Positions 42,957-52,629 of a DNA stretch of 64,000 nucleotides are shown in pieces. The notes beneath the pieces are model-generated. The model ran no database searches. It was not told the origin of the DNA and saw only the letters and a program-made list of their open reading frames with translations. Both the position numbers and the translations under genes were made by a program. Where the stretch lies: assembly GCF_001659605.2 (NCBI RefSeq), contig NC_035162.2:8203248-8267247 (forward strand). Reading direction: 5' to 3'. The DNA is from Manihot esculenta. Taxonomy: Eukaryota; Streptophyta; Magnoliopsida; Malpighiales; Euphorbiaceae. Position 1 is the first letter of the stretch. The number at the start of each line of letters is the position of its first letter.

Positions 42957-43108
42957 ATGGTAGCACCAACAGTGGACGCAGACTACTTGAAGGAAATAGT
43001 GAAGGCTCAAAGGGACCTTCGCGCTCTCATGTCCACCAAAAACTGCGCCCCTATTATGCTTCGCTTAGCGTAAATTCTGTATTATCCTCTGTTTCTTTGT
43101 ATCCACGG

Positions 43109-44559
43109 TGATAAGCGGTTGTCGAAACCGTCAAAAATAAACCTATTAAATAATCAACAATAAACTTGTAGATAGTGGCAATAGGATCGAACCACAGGGA
43201 ATTGACACCAATTATTTTCCTAATAATGACTAGGTCAAGTAAATAACAAGTAATTAAATGAGGGGGGTTTTGATTTGATGATTAAAATTAAATAGTAAAA
43301 GAAAGCAATAATTTAAAGTTTGAGTAAATCAATAAGAGAAAAGCTTATAGTTGAAGTATGGATCTTTTTTAGATTGTTTAGAATTGATCATTGATTCTTT
43401 AATACTCCTATTTATCTCAACAAATTAGTTTAGGATGTGGAAGACGCTTCTCACAATCCAAATTTCTCCTTAGTTCTTGTTTGATTAGCGAACGTTTCCT
43501 AATCAAACTAGATTATGCAAGTTGCCTGCATTAGGAAACGTTCGCTAATCAAACACTAGTTAACAAGTTTCCAAGGAACGTCCTTGGGGCCTTTGGCATC
43601 GAACAACTGTTGACTGCATTAAAACTTAGAGAAACCCAATTCTATCCTTGCCAACCGCGTGGTCAAGTTTAGATTATGCAATTTGATTAAATGTGTATTT
43701 GAACAACCTAAGCAATTACGGACCTAAATCATTCAAACAATATTACTTAAGCAATTTAAAAACAATGGGCCCTTATTGATTCTAAAAGCAAAGTAATAAT
43801 TATGGAAAGCTCAAATTGCATAAATATTGATAATAAATAGAAGTTTAACAATGGAGATTTAAATCTCCCAATTCATCACAAAATCTGAAATTCACCAACT
43901 TCAACTAGAAAAGGAGGAATTTAACCACTCATGGTGGACTAAATACACAAAAAGATGAAAAGAAAAGAAAAAGGAAAGAGGCTGCAGAGTTTCTGGCGAG
44001 GGAGAAGATGCTGACTAGCTGATCAGAAGATGCCCCTTGCTGGTTTGGAGATTGCTCTTTTATAGCTGAAGAATTCCATCCTTCTAGGGTTTTGAAATCC
44101 CTTTTTAATTTGGCTTGTGATTCCTCTTTTGATGTTGAATTTAATTGCAACTGGAATTCCTTAAGTGAGAAACTCTTTCGTGGCTCTTGGAATTGTTTTG
44201 GTAGTGATTGAGTTGGATTTGGACTTCTGAAAACTCAAAATTCGGTTTCCTGAACAATTTCCCGCTCTGCTGTATTTTCTGCTGTCATTGTGATCGGGGC
44301 AGTGATTTGGGCAAATCACTGGTCCAATCACTTTCTGCAAGTCTGTGCTATCTCTGCTAGTGATCTGGGCAGTTTCTGCGAGTGATTTGGGCAAATCACT
44401 GGTCCAATCACTTTTGCTGTCATTTTCTGTACTTTTTCTCCAACTTTTCAATTTCTTCCTTTTCTACAAAACCATAACAAAAACACAATTTAAGCTAGAA
44501 AAATGTGTAAATAAACAGTAAATAATATATTAAAAACATGGTTAAATTATGCTTGATCA
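43109..44559 (-). repeat. 3' LTR of the non-autonomous gypsy element
   Basis: 1451 bases, TGATAAGCGG...TTGATCA on the + strand. It is 46 bases longer than its partner because of an inverted duplication at about 43490-43555, where ATTAGCGAACGTTTCCTAAT and its reverse complement ATTAGGAAACGTTCGCTAAT both occur. It contains two perfect 18-bp palindromic repeats (44302 and 44382). Confidence 0.93.
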
Positions 44560-44574
44560 AATACCCCCACACCT
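44560..44574 (-). other. Polypurine tract next to the 3' LTR
   Basis: On the minus strand AGGTGTGGGGGTATT lies directly before the 3' LTR start, preceded by CTTGAGGACAAGCAAAAAG, the usual context of the PPT in this group. It primes plus-strand synthesis. Confidence 0.85.
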
Positions 44575-44908
44575 AACTTTTTGCTTGTCCTCAAGCAAAC
44601 AATAACTTAGCTAATCAAGCCCCCCTTTTCTTTTGATCCTAAATACCACTTAATCAGCTCCCCTAGACTCCTAAACTGAAGTATCACAGTATATAGTAAA
44701 TGCACCAAGGTCATCCTCTCTTTTCCTTGTTTCCCTTCACCTACCATGGTCAAGAGAAAGGTTTATGGCTCAATCATGCTTATTCCTTTATGTTAGTTTT
44801 AATGCAACCCCTAGGAGTGACTTGCCCCTTTTTTCTCTCTTTCTTTTTATTTTCATTTTTATTTTCAGCAGCACTTATTCTTATCCTTGCCTGAAAAAGT
44901 CACTAACC

Positions 44909-45150
44909 TTTTTACGCGATTGTGTACATGGGTGATACACCCCCGGTTACTCAGTTAGTCACTTGTTCAAGTGGCTACTAGCTCTGTTCATAGTCTAGAC
45001 CATCGAAACTTATTTGCTTGAAAAAAATCACCGCCTTTTTTACGCGATTGTGTACATGGGTGATACACCCCCGGTTACTCAGTTAGTCACTTCTCCAAGT
45101 GGCTATTAGGCTCAGTTCATAGTCTTAGACCATTGGAACAGGTTTATGAT
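44909..45150. repeat. 128-bp tandem duplication inside the gypsy element
   Basis: The segment beginning tacgcgattgtgtacatggg at 44913 recurs at 45041 with a few differences. It lies in the noncoding stretch between the two polypurine tracts. Confidence 0.9.
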
Positions 45151-45577
45151 TTGTGTTTTGTGCTGGTTTTTCATGATAGTTTGGGCAAATCAGCTCATAG
45201 GGAGTTACACTAACTTTTTATTTGCATGTATTTGTATTTTTATTTCCCTTGACCATAGCAAATTTAAGGATTCAGTTCAAGAGAAAAAACTCCCTAAGTG
45301 AAGGTAACATACTGTGAATGATTCAATTTAGGCTTAAAGGGGTGGCAAATCAATGGGGTCATGAGATAAGGAAGCTCTTTTAACCTTGTTATCTATGTTG
45401 AGTAGAGCAATTAGCTAAGATAAAATTCTGTGTGTGTGTGCAAGAAGTGTGAAAAAAATTCTGGTGTGTGAAAAAGGGGTAAGAACAATGCAAAAAAGAA
45501 ATAAAAAGAAACAAATAGAAAAAAAAAGAAACAAAAAGAAACAAATAGAAAAAAAAAGATGATGGAATCAACGCAAA

Positions 45578-45850
45578 TCAATGCAAAAATAACCTAACAA
45601 TACCCCCACACCTATGACAAACATTGTCCTCAATGTGTAAGCATATATATAAAAAATTAAGAAGAAAAGGGAAAAAGACTTCCTGGCCTGTGGGTGATTT
45701 GGCCAGTGATTTGGGCAAATCACTGGTCAAATCACTGTCTGTCACGGTGTTGGGCAGAAAATGGTCTACCAACAGGTCCAGTAGGTGCTCCATGTGCTGC
45801 ATCCTGTCTCTGATTCTGGTGAGATGAGCCTCCACCGAATGGTCTTGAGG
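45578..45850 (-). pseudogene. 3'-terminal coding remnant of the gypsy element
   Basis: In a different minus frame from the protease, this segment encodes an amphipathic, Arg/His/Leu-rich stretch (MEAHLTRIRDRMQHMEHLLD) of the kind found at the end of Athila/Tat polyproteins, then SDLTSDLPKSLAKSP from a palindromic repeat. The join with the protease-side frame near 45850 marks the deletion that removed RT, RNase H and integrase. Confidence 0.6.
45601..45613 (-). other. Second polypurine-tract-like sequence
   Basis: AGGTGTGGGGGTA occurs again about 1 kb inside the element, also preceded by GAGGACAATG-type sequence. It directly follows the 3'-terminal coding remnant, where the original PPT would be expected, so the 1 kb between the two copies is probably an added segment. 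Confidence 0.7.
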
Positions 45851-48725
45851 TGCCTTTTATGTCCTCCAAGGTCCACCCAATTGCTTTTTTGTGCTTCTTT
45901 AACACATCAAGGAGCTTTTCTTCTTCCTCTTGGCTGAGCTGGTTGGAAATAATTACTGGAAGTGTATTTCCAGCCCCCAAGTAGGCATATTTGAGGTGGC
46001 TAGGCAAGGGTTTCAGATCTGGTGCTTTCTCTGTCTGCTGGTTTTCTGTCTGCTTGCTGTCTGATTTGCCCAGTGATTTGGGCAAATCACTGGTCAAATC
46101 ACTTCCTGTTAAGTCTGTCTGCTCACTGATTTGGGCAGATTGTCTGGGTGATTTGGGCAGATCGCTGGGCAAATCACCTGTAACCAGCTGTGAACAGTAC
46201 TCCATCTGGTCTGTCTTGGTGTTGCTGTCCACTTCTTCTCTCCTGCAAAGACCTTCATAAAGTAAGTTTTCTTGATCAAAATCAAAAATTTCTTGACTTA
46301 AATCATCAATTATATCAAGGCCATAAACAGGAGAAACATCATTGGGGAATTTCATGGCATCATAAACATTAAATTTTATAATTTCCCCTTCAAACTCCAT
46401 GGTCAATGTGCCATCATGCACATCAATTTTTGTTCTTGCTGTGCTCAAGAATGGTCTCCCAAGTAAGATATCAGAGGTGGTGTTGCTCTTATCTTCCTCC
46501 ATGTCAATGATATAAAAATCACCTGGGAAGACTAGTTGGTCCACTTGCACTAACACATCTTCAAGCACTCCTTTAGGGTAGACAATGGATCGGTCAGCCA
46601 ATTGGATCATAATGCTGGTGCCCTTGAGTGTACCTGCATTCAACAAGTTAAAAATAGAAAGGGGCATGACATTAATTGAAGCTCCAAGGTCACACATGGC
46701 CTTCTTTATTCCCACATTGCCTATTTTGCATGAAATCGCGAACATTCCTCTATCCTTGCATTTGGTGGGAAGTTTCCTTTGAATGACAGCTGAGACACAC
46801 TCCCCCACACTTACCTTTTCATGTTCAGCAAGTTTCCTCCGGTTAGTGCATAGTTCTTTGAGAAACTTGGCATACCTTGGAATTTGCTTGATAGCATCAA
46901 GTAGGGGAATGTTGATTTCTACCTTGCGAAGTGTCTCAAGTATTTCTTTTTCCTCTTTTTCTTTTTAGGACCTTGCAAATCTCTTTGGAAAGGGAGGAGG
47001 TACCTTGAATTTCTCTGCTGGTTGTTGTTTCTGCCCTTGACTGGATTCTGCCTGATCTGTTGATTTGGGCAAATTGCCTGGTGATTTGGGCAAATCACTG
47101 CTGGGCAGCTCAGTCTGCCTAGCGATTTGGTCAGTGATTTGGGCAAATCGACTGCCCTGATCACTTTCTGGCAGATTTTCCTCCATGGCCTGTTTTTGCA
47201 ATTTTTCAACCTTGCTGTCTTGTAGCTCTTTTCCACTCCTCAATGTGATGGCACTAACATTTTGTCTTGGATTTATCTCAGTTTGGGAAGGTAGCTTCCC
47301 TTGAGACTCATATTTGCTCATTGAAGAGGCCATTTGACTCACTTGTTTCTCAAGACTTTGCACAGTATTTGCTAAATTCTGCACAATCTCTTCAAGAGGT
47401 GCTTTGGAGTTCTGAGGTGCAGCTTGAGCTTGATTCCTTTGCTGGTAGCTTGGATATTGATTTCCCCTTGCATAATTGAAATTTGGATGGTCCCTCCAAC
47501 CTGGATTATAAGTATTTGCATAGGGATCATACCTTCTTTGCCCATTGAAACCTCCAACAACATTGACTTGCTGGTCCTCCTCTTAAAGGGAAGGACATAG
47601 ATCAGTTGGGTGGTTGTTGGCACATATTCCACATGTCTTGGGCTGCTGAATCTGCTGGACTTGTTGGGTTTGACCCACAACAAGGCTACGGACAGCATTG
47701 GTGAGTTCAGAAATTTGGGATGCTAAAATGGATGTACTCACCTCATTTACATTCCTTGATGGCAGCTCTTGGTCTCCAAATTGTTGAGAAGTTGCAGCCA
47801 TGGAGGAAATTAAGTCCCTCATCTCTCGAGGTGATTTTTTTTCAATTGTTCCTCCACAGGCTGTGTTAATAAACTTTCTTTCTGAGGGTAGCAATCCTCC
47901 ATAGAAGTACTCGATGAGAGATTGGTCAGAAATATCATGCCGAGGGCAGCTTGTGCACAACTTTTTGAACCTCTCCCAGTACTCATACAAGCCTTCAGAG
48001 TGCTTTTGCTTTATGCCACTTATTTCTCGACGGATGCCTATGGCTTTTGAGGTTGGGAAGAATTTTCTCAAGAATGCTCTTACCATATCAGCCCATGATG
48101 TGATGGATCCGGGTGGCAAGTAGAATAGCCACTCTTTGGCATAGTCTTCAAGGGAAAAAGGGAAGGCTCTAAGCTTGATATCTTCTTCTGGAATACCTTG
48201 GGGTCTCATGGTTGAGCACACAACGTGGAATGCCTTCAAATGCTTGTGAGGATCTTCATTTTCTAGGCCTCTGAATTTGGGAAGGAGATGAATTAGACCT
48301 GTCTTTAGCTCGAATGGTGCTGTCAATAGGGGATATTCAATGCATAAGGGTGCTTGATCTCCTACTGGTTCTGCTAACTCTCTGAGAGTTCTTTCCCGTG
48401 GCTGAGGTGCTTGGATGGGCACGTTTCCAGCTTGTATTTCAGCTTCTACATGTGCAGCAGGTGGTGCTGCCATTGCTGGATTTTCTGCCATAACCAGAAG
48501 TTCAGTTTCTGGTGCAAATTCAGTAGTAGTAGGTGTGGTGATGGAAGTTTCTGCTGGTGCAGAAATTTCTGCAGTAGGGGCAGTAGGTGGTCTGTGAGGT
48601 GGAGTTGTTGATGAAGATGGTTTTGAGGCTTGGTTCCTCAAATTTGCTTGCTTCCTTAAGCTCTTGGCGGTTTTCTCAATCTCTGGATCGTAAAGAAGAG
48701 TGTCTTTACGGCCAGACCTGGTCAT
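45732..48725 (-). pseudogene. gag-protease reading frame with two in-frame stops
   Basis: One continuous minus-strand frame runs from ATG at 48725 to a stop at 45732 and is broken only by TAA codons at 47583-47585 and 46965-46967. The gag part has the retrotransposon gag domain (LPKFRGLENEDPHKHLKAF, WADMVRAFLRKFFP, KFINTACGG) and a zinc-knuckle-like CGICANNHPTDLCP. After the first stop come a Gln-rich linker and VQNLANTVQSLEKQ. After the second stop comes the aspartic protease with DLGASINVMP, then LLGRPFLSTARTKIDV. The last 43 codons are out of the original pol frame because of the internal deletion. Several linkers are built from repeats of the SDLPKSL type encoded by the 18-bp palindrome. 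Two stops in an otherwise open 1000-codon frame suggest recent death or suppression; the former is more likely. Confidence 0.85.
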
Positions 48726-48753
48726 AAAGGGAAAATACGTTAGTTAGATCAAT

Positions 48754-48771
48754 TTCCCGGCAACGGTGCCA
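48754..48771 (-). other. Primer-binding site
   Basis: The minus strand reads TGGCACCGTTGCCGGGAA five bases after the 5' LTR. It matches, with about two differences, the tRNA-Asp-complementary PBS (TGGCGCCGTTGCCGGGGA) of plant Athila/Tat-type gypsy elements. It fixes the element's orientation. Confidence 0.85.
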
Positions 48772-48776
48772 ATTTT

Positions 48777-50181
48777 TGATAAGCGGTTGTCGAAGCCGTC
48801 AAAAATAAACCTATTAAACAATCAACAATAAACTTGTAGATAGTGGCAATAGGGTCGAACCACAGGGAATTGACACCAATGATTTTCCTAATAATGACTA
48901 GGTCAAGTAAATAACAAGTAATTAAAAGAGGGGGGTTTTGATTTGATGATTAAAATTAAATAGCAAAAGAAAGCAATAATTTAAAGTTTGAGTAAATCAA
49001 TAAGAGAAAAGCTTCTAGTTGAAGTATGGATCTTTTTCAGATTGTTTAGAATTGATCATTGATTCTTTAATACTCCTATTTATCTCAACAAATTAGTTTA
49101 GGATGTGGAAGACGCTTCTCACAATCCAAATTCCTCCTTAGTTCTAGTTTGATTAGGAAACGTTCGCTAATCAAACACTAGTTAACAAGTTGCCAAGGAA
49201 CGTCCTTGGGGCCTTTGGCATCGAACAACTGTTGACTGCATTAAGACTTAGAGAAACCCAATTCTATCCTTGCCAACCGCGTGGTCAAGTTTAGATTATG
49301 CAATTTGATTAAATGTGTATTTGAACAACCTAAGCAATTACGGACCTAAATCATTCAAACAATATTACTTAAGCAATTTAAAAACAATGGGCCCTTATTG
49401 ATTCTAAAAGCAAAGTAATAATTATGGAAAGCTCAAATTGCATAAATATTGATAATAAATAGAAGTTTAACAATGGAGATTTAAATCTCCCAATTCATCA
49501 CAAAATCTGAAATTCACCAACTTCAACTAGAAAAGGAGGAATTTAACCACTCATGGTGGACTAAATACACAAAAAGATGAAAAGAAAAGAAAAAGGAAAG
49601 AGGCTGCAGAGTTTCTGGCGAGGGAGAAGATGCTGACTAGCTGATCAGAAGATGCCCCTTGCTGGTTTGGAGGTTGCTCTTTTATAGCTGAAGAATTCCA
49701 TCCTTCTAGGGTTTTGAAATCCACTTTTAATTTGGCTTGTGATTCCTCTTTTGATGTTGAATTTAATTGCAACTGGAATTTCTTAAGTGAGAAACTCTTT
49801 CGTGGCTCTTGGAATTGTTTTGGTAGTGATTGAGTTGGATTTGGACTTCTGAAAACTCAAAATTCGGTTTCCTGAACAATTTCCCGCTTTGTTGTATTTT
49901 CTGCTGTCATTGTGATCGGGGCAGTGATTTGGGCAAATCACTGGTCCAATCACTTTCTGCAAGTCTGTGCTATCTCTGCTAGTGATCTGGGCAGTTTCTG
50001 CGAGTGATTTGGGCAAATCACTGGTCCAATCACTTTTGCTGTCATTTTCTCCACTTTTTCTCCAACTTTTCAATTTCTTCCTTTTCTACAAAAGCATAAC
50101 AAAAACACAATTTAAGCTAGAAAAATGTGTAAATAAACAGTAAATAATATATTAAAAACATGGTTAAATTATGCTTGATCA
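48777..50181 (-). repeat. 5' LTR of the non-autonomous gypsy element
   Basis: 1405 bases with the same ends as the partner LTR. It has only one orientation of the GAAACGTTCG-centred hairpin (about 49147-49177) and two perfect 18-bp palindromic repeats (49924 and 50004). Confidence 0.93.
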
Positions 50182-50396
50182 CATGGACTGCAATTGCTGG
50201 GAGTTTCGAAAATTGATAATGGAAAGGGTAATTTACAATTTAGTCCCTGGGTATTGCCATTATTAACAAGTCAATCCCTGTATTTTCAGAAACCTATTAA
50301 AACGTCCTTATGTTTTCTCTCCGTCAACGAAATAGTCCTTCTGTCTATTTTTGCCGTTAAAAATATAGTAAAAGACTAAATTGCCCCTAATTATTT

Positions 50397-50753
50397 TTCT
50401 CCTCCTCCTCCTTCCTTTTCTTCTTCATCAATTCTTCTTCCTTTTGCTTCTTCTTCTTCTGCTTCTTCTCCTTTTTCTTCTTCTTCTTCTGTTTTTTCTC
50501 CTTCTTTTTCTGCTTCTTCTCCTTTTTCTTCTTTTGCTTCTTTTTCTTCTTTTTCTTCTTTATCTTCTTCTTCTTCTTCTCATTCTTCTCCTTCTTCTTC
50601 TTCTTTTTCTTCTTTTTCTTCTTTCTCTCCTTCTTTTTCTTCTTCTCCTTCTTCTTCTTCTTCTTCTCCTTCTTCTTCTTTTTCTTCTTTCTCTTCTTCT
50701 TCTTCTTCTTCTTCTTTTTCGGAGGAGGAGGAGGAGGAGGAGGAGGAGGAGGA
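50397..50753. repeat. Long CTT-type tract switching to a GGA tract
   Basis: About 320 bases of nearly pure pyrimidine (TTC/CTT with interruptions, to 50720) switch abruptly to (GGA)11 at 50721-50753, so one strand changes from all-pyrimidine to all-purine. Poly-Leu and poly-Arg open frames across it are artefacts of the repeat. Confidence 0.95.
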
Positions 50754-50779
50754 AAGAAAATATATGGATTATTTTGTTG

Positions 50780-51145
50780 ATAAAGAGAAACAAAAAGGAT
50801 GTTTTAATAGATCTTAGAAAAGATAGGGACTATTTCGTTGACAAAAAGAAACAATAAGGACGTTTTAATATATTTCTAAAAATATAGGGAGAGACGATTT
50901 CGTTGACAGAAAGAAACGATGATGAGGGACTATTTCGTTGACTTAAATAAACGATAAGGATGTTTTAATAGATGTGAGAAAAGATAGGGACTATTTCATT
51001 GATGGAAAAAAATAATAAGGACGTTTTAATAGATATGAAAAAAGATAAAAATATTTTAATAGATTTTTGAAAATGTAAGGACTAACTTGTTAATAATTAC
51101 AATATACAAGGACTAAATAAATGGTTTTATTTGAGGGTAAAATTG
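50780..51145. repeat. Subterminal TIR-derived repeats in the MITE
   Basis: Units containing agatagggactatttcgttgac and aggacgttttaatag recur at intervals of about 60-100 bases (near 50795, 50857, 50956 and 51017). The stretch at about 51075-51145 is a degenerate copy of the outermost right TIR. Repeated duplication of the right end is the simplest explanation. Confidence 0.8.
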
Positions 51146-52629
51146 GATTTTAAAAATTTTCTCTCTCCTCCTTTATCTAATTTTAACGGAAAATAGGACG
51201 GAAGGACTATTTCGTTGACGGAAATAAAACATAAGGACGTTTTAATAGGTTTCTAAAAATACAGAGACTGACTTGTTAATAATGGCAATACACAGGGATT
51301 AAATCGTAAATTACCCTAATGGAAATGTTTTGTGAAGGTGGCATGATGCGGGAACTTACGATGCTAAAACCAAGACTGGAGGGCCTAATGGTTCCATCAG
51401 GAACGAGAAAGAGTACAATCACGAAGCTAATAGAGGTCTTAAACTCGCTATCGATTTGTGCGGTGAGCTCTTTTTACTAGTTATATCTGGACGTTTGTTT
51501 TGAGATTAGTTTTTCCCCCTTCTTGAAATTGCTTCTGGATTCTGTTTTTCAGAGGAAATCAAGGCCAAACACCCCAAAATTACGTATGCTGACCTCTATC
51601 AGGTGATTACTTATTTTCAGATCATATGATCTAGTTTTGTTCAATAACAATGGAAGGAATTATTTCTCATACTGTTGCAGAAATTATAGATTTAATTTAA
51701 CTTGTTTTTTTTTTCTTCTCGGGAAATTTAGCTAGCTGGGGTTGTTGCAGTGGAGAGGTCACTGGAGGTCCAAATATTGACTTCGTCCCAGGCAGAAAGG
51801 TATTCTTATGATAGAATGGCCGTCACCCAATAGTTCTTATCTACTAACTTCTTTGTTTCTTTGTCAGGATTCAACTGAATCTGCTGAGGAGGGTCGTCTT
51901 CCTGATGCCAAAAAGGGTCTGTATCTGAGTATCTGCTGAAGAAAACACTATTGTGTTCATTTCATTGAAACACATACCATTATAATCTAATGTGGTTGCA
52001 GGTGCATCGCATTTAAGGGATGTATTTTCTCGAATGGTCTGTCAGACAAGGAAATTGTGGCACACTCTGGTGGTCATACCCTGGTAATGTTTTCAGAGAT
52101 TGGAAATGATTGTTTTTAACGTGCTTGACCTTGATTTTTTGCTTCGTGTCATAGGGAAAGGCACATAGGGAAAGATCAGGTTTTGAAGGTGCTTGGACAA
52201 AGGAGCCGCTGAAGTTTGACAACTCCCACTTCAGGTCAGAAACTTATTATCCTAAGCTTCTGAAACGAGACTCAGAGGGGCTGTTAAAGCTCCCTCTTGG
52301 ACAAGACTCTGGTGGAAGATCCTAAGTTTCGCCCCTATGTTGAGCGATGTGCAGAGGTATTAGGCAGACTATATTCGTTTCCTCGCGTGGATAATTGATA
52401 CACTGTGTGTGATCTGCATAATTACTGTGGCAGGACGAGGATGCATTCTTCACAGACTATGCGGAAGCGCACAAGAAATTATCAGAAGCTGGGCTTTACT
52501 CCACCTTCCAGAGCTGCTAAGGGTACACTTCTTGCACAGAGTGCTGTTGGAGTTGCAGTAGCTGCAACTGTAGTAATATTTAGTTACTATTATGTTTCTG
52601 TTTCTCTTATCCAAGTCCAGCCACGATGA

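Follow-up and report, generated by a model that had tools for sequence, protein, structure and literature searches.

A 12-bp unit, CAGTGATTTGCC, has multiplied through one retroelement family of cassava (Manihot esculenta), where it occupies the unique 3' (U3) region of the long terminal repeats (LTRs), their promoter half, and also the coding linkers, the zone ahead of the env-like gene (pre-env zone) and the env-like open reading frame (ORF), and the number of units is still shifting by single units between sister LTRs. The copy described here lies on the minus strand of a 64,000-nucleotide stretch of contig NC_035162.2 (positions 8,203,248 to 8,267,247; hereafter the window), and its sequence points to a defective retrotransposon of the Athila type (Ty3/gypsy). 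We consider it probable, at about 0.6, that the units spread through this family by slippage and template switching and that the spread was largely neutral.

A preliminary description of the window had reported an 18-bp palindrome, GTGATTTGGGCAAATCAC, as colonising both the LTRs and the coding frame of the element. This 18-mer is the head-to-head form of the 12-bp unit, which, in both orientations, is the recurring building block. Seven perfect 18-mers were found in the window (44302, 44382, 45706, 46073, 47081, 49924 and 50004), compared with a mean of 0.11 matches and a maximum of 2 in 100 shuffles of the window, and their placement agreed with that description: two in each LTR, others in the linkers after gag and after the protease, and one in the 3' remnant. 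Degenerate copies at 2-3 mismatches numbered three (46148, 47060 and 47134) rather than about five; more appear at the level of the 12-bp unit, of which the element contains 7 exact copies, 2 at one mismatch and 11 at two, against 0.0, 0.05 and 0.83 expected from Markov shuffles. The symmetry, reported as 8-bp arms around GG, is indeed palindromic, with the core GTGATTTG..CAAATCAC, and is often longer than reported: 17-19 of 20 arm positions are paired at 44302/49924, 45706 and 46073, 13 of 20 at 44382/50004, and 8 of 20 at 47081. Exact stretches shared between distant zones measure 25 bp for U3 and the coding units, and 34 bp for the linker between protease and reverse transcriptase (pro-RT linker) and the 3' remnant.

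A search of the cassava genome (640,357,471 bases in 86 contigs) revealed 2,772 exact 18-mers (1570 + 1202) and none of the reversed control; with any two bases allowed at the centre the count was 3,607 places, again with 0 for the control. One hundred listed 18-mer places were grouped by hand into 42 clusters, and 23 loci, representing 22 clusters and 50 of the 100 listed places, were fetched, all of them within the initial 15.2 Mb of contig C1 and each selected for holding the 18-mer. Two pairs of loci likely represent single events: L032 and L037 have a common target duplication, and around one copy the sequences of L041 and L042 show 98.6% identity. L032 and L037, which lie about 250 kb apart with an identical layout and the target duplication TAAAT at both, are probably a segmental duplication.

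LTR or internal sequence of the family was present in all 23 loci, and all 50 examined 18-mers lay inside family loci. Three further loci, chosen for holding a variant palindrome with a GGCC centre, proved to be LTRs 75-76% identical to the window's LTR. The reported colonisation of both LTRs and coding frame is supported. Each 18-mer was assigned to a zone by matches of more than 150 bases to the window element, because short BLAST matches from unit to unit misplaced copies. Forty of the 50 were assigned in this way, to U3 (14), the end of the env-like ORF or the 3' remnant (12), the linker between gag and protease (gag-pro linker; 11) and the pro-RT linker (3); the remaining 10, matched to other family copies, fell in the pre-env zone (7), U3 (2) and the end of env (1). 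At two mismatches or fewer, the loci L021, L033, L026 and L030 and the window element contain 20-31 units per locus (8.1-10 kb), against 0.7-1.4 expected. The repeat is real and, among the places examined, confined to this family.

Both LTRs were seen in eight elements, one of them truncated and two (L032 and L037) probably duplicates. Comparison of sister LTRs revealed a difference of exactly one 12-nt unit in two of the eight pairs, L025 and L030, which accounts for 2 of 10 indels overall; substitutions between the sisters amount to 5/1513 in L025 and 11/1394 in L030. Another kind of change was found in the 3' LTR of the window element, where a 46-nt insertion is present that the other 22 of the 23 scored LTRs lack (two LTRs were unscored). 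The insertion is composed of a 29-nt inverted copy and of 12-nt and 9-nt direct copies from the same LTR, with overlaps of 3-4 nt, and creates a perfect inverted repeat of 26 bp. This composition is a signature of template switching, left by reverse transcriptase or by later DNA repair.

Comparison of the coding linkers shows that the units of the gag-pro linker are old in the family. The core of the second (main) unit, GATYTGCCCAA, occupies its position in 15 of the 16 copies compared, the block being rearranged in L030, and the exact 18-mer is present in 11 of 16; when scored by the strict 12-mer, the divergent copies L023, L027, L036 and L040 show only 0-1 unit at 2 mismatches. The gag-pro linker of the window spans 76 aa, compared with 35-54 aa (median 45) in the 16 measurable sequences among the best 120 plant relatives, which at first suggested an insertion. 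Clean insertion of the palindrome into this coding DNA, as originally proposed, was rejected because the cassava copies have the same units in common. Since 15 of 16 copies keep the main unit, the repeats of this linker are largely ancestral and without insertion polymorphism, the finding that the preliminary description had named as contrary to its proposal; unit number and frame still vary.

Translation of the palindrome in frame to SDLPKS-type residues, another early observation, is correct for the majority of coding copies but not for all. Four times the TGCCCAAAT core encodes LPK, whereas at 47145 it gives RFAQI and at 46137 SAQIS. The copy at 45706 lies behind a stop in the gag-pro frame and yields SDLPKS in no frame but that of the env-like tail. 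Linker length is a multiple of 3 in 16/16 gag-pro and 14/16 pro-RT linkers. Of the 16 copies, six have the first unit of the gag-pro linker in the RFAQI phase (with RSAQI in two of them and damage in L036) and ten have it in the DLPNS phase, the shift having occurred via a 1-nt loss and a 10-nt gain; the DNA unit therefore survives a change of frame.

These observations bear on the likeness to coding-region palindromes of bacteria that was initially suggested. The palindromic elements of Rickettsia are palindromic DNA read in frame that invades unrelated genes. Like them, the cassava palindrome is mostly read in frame at several coding sites, here of one element; unlike them, all 50 examined copies (of 2,772) lie inside a single retroelement family, and the main gag-pro unit is common to 15 of 16 relatives instead of being a polymorphic insertion. 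In 257 billion prokaryote bases the 18-mer matched 12 stretches, once each, close to the approximately 7.5 calculated for random sequence. It is extremely unlikely that the repeat is a bacterial-type mobile palindrome that enters coding genes by clean insertion. With these 12 single matches in prokaryote genomes and no exact 18-mer in IMG/VR, a bacterial or viral source was also rejected.

More complete relatives revealed a further site of accumulation. L021 encodes reverse transcriptase (RT), RNase H and integrase according to Pfam (PF00078, PF17917 and PF00665), and the scanned ORF of L033 matches PF17917 and PF00665, with RT homology in this locus detected by tblastn. ATHILA ORF-1 (PF03078), tested in these two loci, matched the env-like ORF of L033 with 29.5 bits (cut-off 20.2) and that of L021 with 15.2 bits, under the cut-off. 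In both, the env-like ORF carries a tandem array of the 12-bp unit (L021:2149-2293 and L033:4461-4617), a minisatellite of about 10-13 head-to-tail units with P-S/T-D-L/V/M-type coding, that is, P-S-D-L-type repeats. The arrays are a possible source of the unit. Units also occur in a third coding spacer, between RNase H and integrase, at L021:4412-4437 (reading TGDLPTDLPK), L026:2343 and L033:6851. All 26 forward units in the examined ORFs of L021 and L033 are in the S-D-L-P phase; four of them lie in open sequence ahead of the env-like start, and tandem copies are not independent of one another.

The single phase of these units would be expected if the repeat existed mainly at the protein level, as a disordered tetrapeptide repeat (P-S-D-L) of the linkers and the env-like ORF, with the DNA palindrome incidental; linker lengths in multiples of 3 and a match of the env-like ORF of L033 to PF04886, 'PT disordered repeat', point the same way. 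We regard this as rather improbable, because arrays of the unit exist in U3 too, which belongs to neither the gag-pol nor the env-like frame, and because one linker unit switched its reading frame with the DNA retained. Protein relatives argue against it as well: a motif scan of 238 listed relatives (from the best 120 of 5224 matches and the best 120 of 155), many of which do not span the linker, found SDLPK in none, KSLG in three and DLPR in one. A related piece was nevertheless found elsewhere, in the metagenome protein P0122, which reads NLFAQIAGQ at the corresponding linker position. When only the repeat-rich linker was used as query against proteins, there were 28 candidates and 0 matches at E values up to 10.

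In U3, analysis of 25 LTRs located the units at LTR positions 147-411, with a further weak match at 1283-1474 in nine LTRs, and a unit near position 147-171 was found in every one of the 25. The first TATAAA follows downstream, at 496-619 in 19 of the 25, at 470 in one copy of L023 and at 415 in L029; four LTRs have none. Excerpts of PMC2829016 describe a comparable arrangement in Sireviruses, whose repeated motifs are palindromic and gather upstream of the TATA box, in the upper half of the LTR, and whose linker copies stand before env in 77 of 79 cases, with extra copies at the env start in two elements. According to excerpts of PMC10760457, the cis-regulatory regions of transposable elements frequently consist of arrayed repeats, some of them palindromic. 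Like the Sirevirus motifs, for which such a role has been proposed, the cassava palindromes could be a selected cis-regulatory array, providing paired sites for a host factor both in U3, ahead of the TATA box, and in front of the env-like gene, with the coding copies as by-products or internal enhancers. Besides the layout, the unit near 147-171 in all 25 LTRs and the occurrence of the GGCC-centre palindrome in U3 of the three LTRs chosen for it would be accounted for in this way.

We nevertheless judge selection for such an array unlikely, on grounds of conservation. This was assessed with 10 LTRs, one per element, excluding L037, the truncated L023 copy and any U3 that holds the 18-mer. Perfect 8-bp arms are kept in only two of the 10 LTRs not picked for their U3. 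Conservation of the first U3 site is close to the average, with an identity of 0.83-0.85 (mean 0.836) and a rank of 649-768 among 1309 windows. The second site reaches 0.86-0.89 (rank 438-597), but just 66-70% of rows have sequence there. The zone occupied by units is variable in length, ranging from 149 to 326 bp in 24 LTRs. No factor binding the motif is known to us, no search for one having been made, and we counted this too against a regulatory array. A test of flank homology between U3 and the linkers was inflated by additional units in the flanks and was not relied on.

A role as an RNA hairpin had also been among the early suggestions. Predicted folds are strong, with z of -7.3 in U3, -3.9 and -4.3 in the linkers and -7.8 in the 3' remnant, and excerpts of PMC10760457 report an excess of small RNAs at the palindrome clusters of maize Sireviruses, while maize Ty3 elements are there said generally to be without an obvious peak of microRNA-like structure. 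A conserved hairpin serving in packaging or dimerisation, or as a source of small interfering RNAs, is very unlikely all the same. Strong folding is expected of any perfect inverted repeat because of its construction. The hairpin of the gag-pro linker has 16 unpaired cells among the 128 of its stem, and none of eight stem pairs has changed on both sides, so that this linker shows no covariation. With the sense strand folded in 110-nt windows, energies below -40 kcal/mol, the cut-off given in excerpts of PMC10760457, were reached at only two places, the 3' remnant and the palindrome made by the 46-nt insertion; the latter has the lowest energy of the element, and U3 (-35.4 kcal/mol) and the pro-RT linker (-35.0 kcal/mol) miss this value.

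Confinement to the family, the density of units, stepwise change between LTRs, copying independent of frame and the small degree of constraint together favour spread by slippage and template switching, and on present evidence this spread was mostly neutral. New copies would be born in both ways, most likely by reverse transcriptase acting on hairpin-prone RNA or complementary DNA, and would last at sites that tolerate their length and sequence, which within ORFs would mean the linkers, with the frame preserved and the TGA-containing phase avoided. Template switching had already been raised as an option in the preliminary description, and both the copying at DNA level and the occurrence of a template-switch event in the family agree with it. 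Several observations weigh against this account. The 12-bp unit is not part of the 46-nt insertion, which therefore shows the process and not the birth of this repeat, and both the insertion and the unit-step changes could equally be errors of DNA replication or repair after integration of the element. The one phase shared by 26/26 forward ORF units leaves room for an origin at the protein level, although only two of the three phases are open, and the unit near 147-171 in all 25 LTRs read could reflect a retained function. Within the gag-pro linker, divergence is slightly lower in unit columns than in the remaining columns (0.121 against 0.139; 0.105 against 0.138 without L030). Finally, the loci examined revealed no intermediate stage in the passage of a unit from coding DNA into U3.

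The window copy itself is a non-autonomous gag-pro derivative that inherited its arrays (Table 1). It keeps gag-pro, with a Retrotrans_gag match (PF03732) of 79.1 bits (cut-off 24.1), and an env-like tail, in which DRMQ.MEHLLDLLVDHFLP recurs from the end of the L033 env-like ORF; the pre-env zone is lost. Two in-frame stops break the gag-pro frame. No RT or integrase was matched in this copy, and matches to the compared relatives that bear RT or integrase do not extend past 45846, a point shortly beyond the protease region. Its LTRs differ by 21 substitutions over 1405 aligned positions, and its flanks, CCATG and CCGTG, are identical at four of five bases. TR-GAG elements are non-autonomous LTR retrotransposons with gag as the sole coding domain; the window element resembles them in having LTRs, a target duplication and gag without RT or integrase, and differs in retaining the protease region and the env-like tail. 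The 3' untranslated part also contains an 88-nt direct repeat (44894-45109; 91% identity, spacing 128).

Table 1 Features of the retroelement in the window
Feature	Position	Strand	Remarks
3' LTR, 1451 bp	43109..44559	-	palindromes at 44302-44319 and 44382-44399
46-nt insertion	43484..43529	-	3' LTR of window element only
Env-like reading-frame tail	45578..45856	-	without own Pfam match
Imperfect palindrome, 42 bp, 19/20 arm pairs	45694..45735	-	end of env-like tail (3' remnant)
Protease region	45732..46964	-	matches to compared plant relatives stop at 45846 or earlier
Pro-RT linker units	46060..46180	-	perfect 46073-46090; degenerate 46148-46165; surrounding unit array
gag C-terminus and gag-pro linker	46965..47582	-	in the frame of gag, one stop between it and gag
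Gag-pro linker units	47060..47151	-	perfect 47081-47098; degenerate 47060-47077 and 47134-47151
gag ORF	47583..48743	-	PF03732
5' LTR, 1405 bp	48777..50181	-	palindromes in U3 at 49924-49941 and 50004-50021; TATA at 49686

The element is contained, in antisense orientation, in the first intron (approximately 43070-51337, exons placed by eye) of an ascorbate peroxidase gene (42957-51462), identified by PF00141 and by matches to cytosolic ascorbate peroxidases. Adjoining it in the same intron, 50225-51317 has imperfect inverted arms of 137 nt (88% identity) around a TTC-rich and GGA-rich interior, and looks like a foldback element or one resembling miniature inverted-repeat transposable elements.

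A literature search combining palindromic motifs, Ty3 gypsy and gag returned no paper, and in searches for Athila palindromes or repeats and for cassava Athila no title or abstract opening described such a repeat. The initial statement that no named element of this kind exists does not hold, since the repeated motifs of Sireviruses are comparable (excerpts of PMC2829016). There, palindromic repeats in U3 and before env are described as specific to Sireviruses and absent from classic retrotransposons. The cassava palindrome likewise recurs in the part of U3 that precedes the TATA box and is present before the env-like gene (7 of the 50 18-mers in the pre-env zone). In contrast to the Ty1/copia Sireviruses, its host is a Ty3/gypsy element of the Athila type, with ATHILA ORF-1 in a close relative; its core, GTGATTTG..CAAATCAC, is without the CGG-CCG of the Sirevirus motifs, which by the same excerpts one published motif, Tnd-1, also misses; and its 12-bp unit is found in direct tandem arrays and in the gag-pro and pro-RT coding linkers as well. 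The layout is thus similar, with coding linkers in addition, whereas element type and the CGG-CCG core set the cassava repeat apart from the Sirevirus motifs. With the Ty3/gypsy Retand elements it has in common tandem repeats that are specific to the family, vary in array length and lie in the 3' internal region (excerpts of PMC11963269); the Retand repeats lie between pol and the 3' LTR, whereas the cassava unit is also found in U3, in the coding linkers and in inverted orientation.

Because a similar layout is found in a Ty3/gypsy family, palindromes arranged in this way look like a recurrent outcome. We tentatively suggest that the unit may be a DNA parasite within a retrotransposon, copied by template switching of reverse transcription among U3, the pre-env zone and the coding linkers, and that the layout may have evolved independently in Sireviruses and in an Athila family, with hairpin-forming units in these zones either exploiting reverse transcription or serving a shared promoter need. 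With several thousand copies, sister LTRs and the constraint of frame, the cassava family offers a natural experiment on slippage and template switching versus promoter function.

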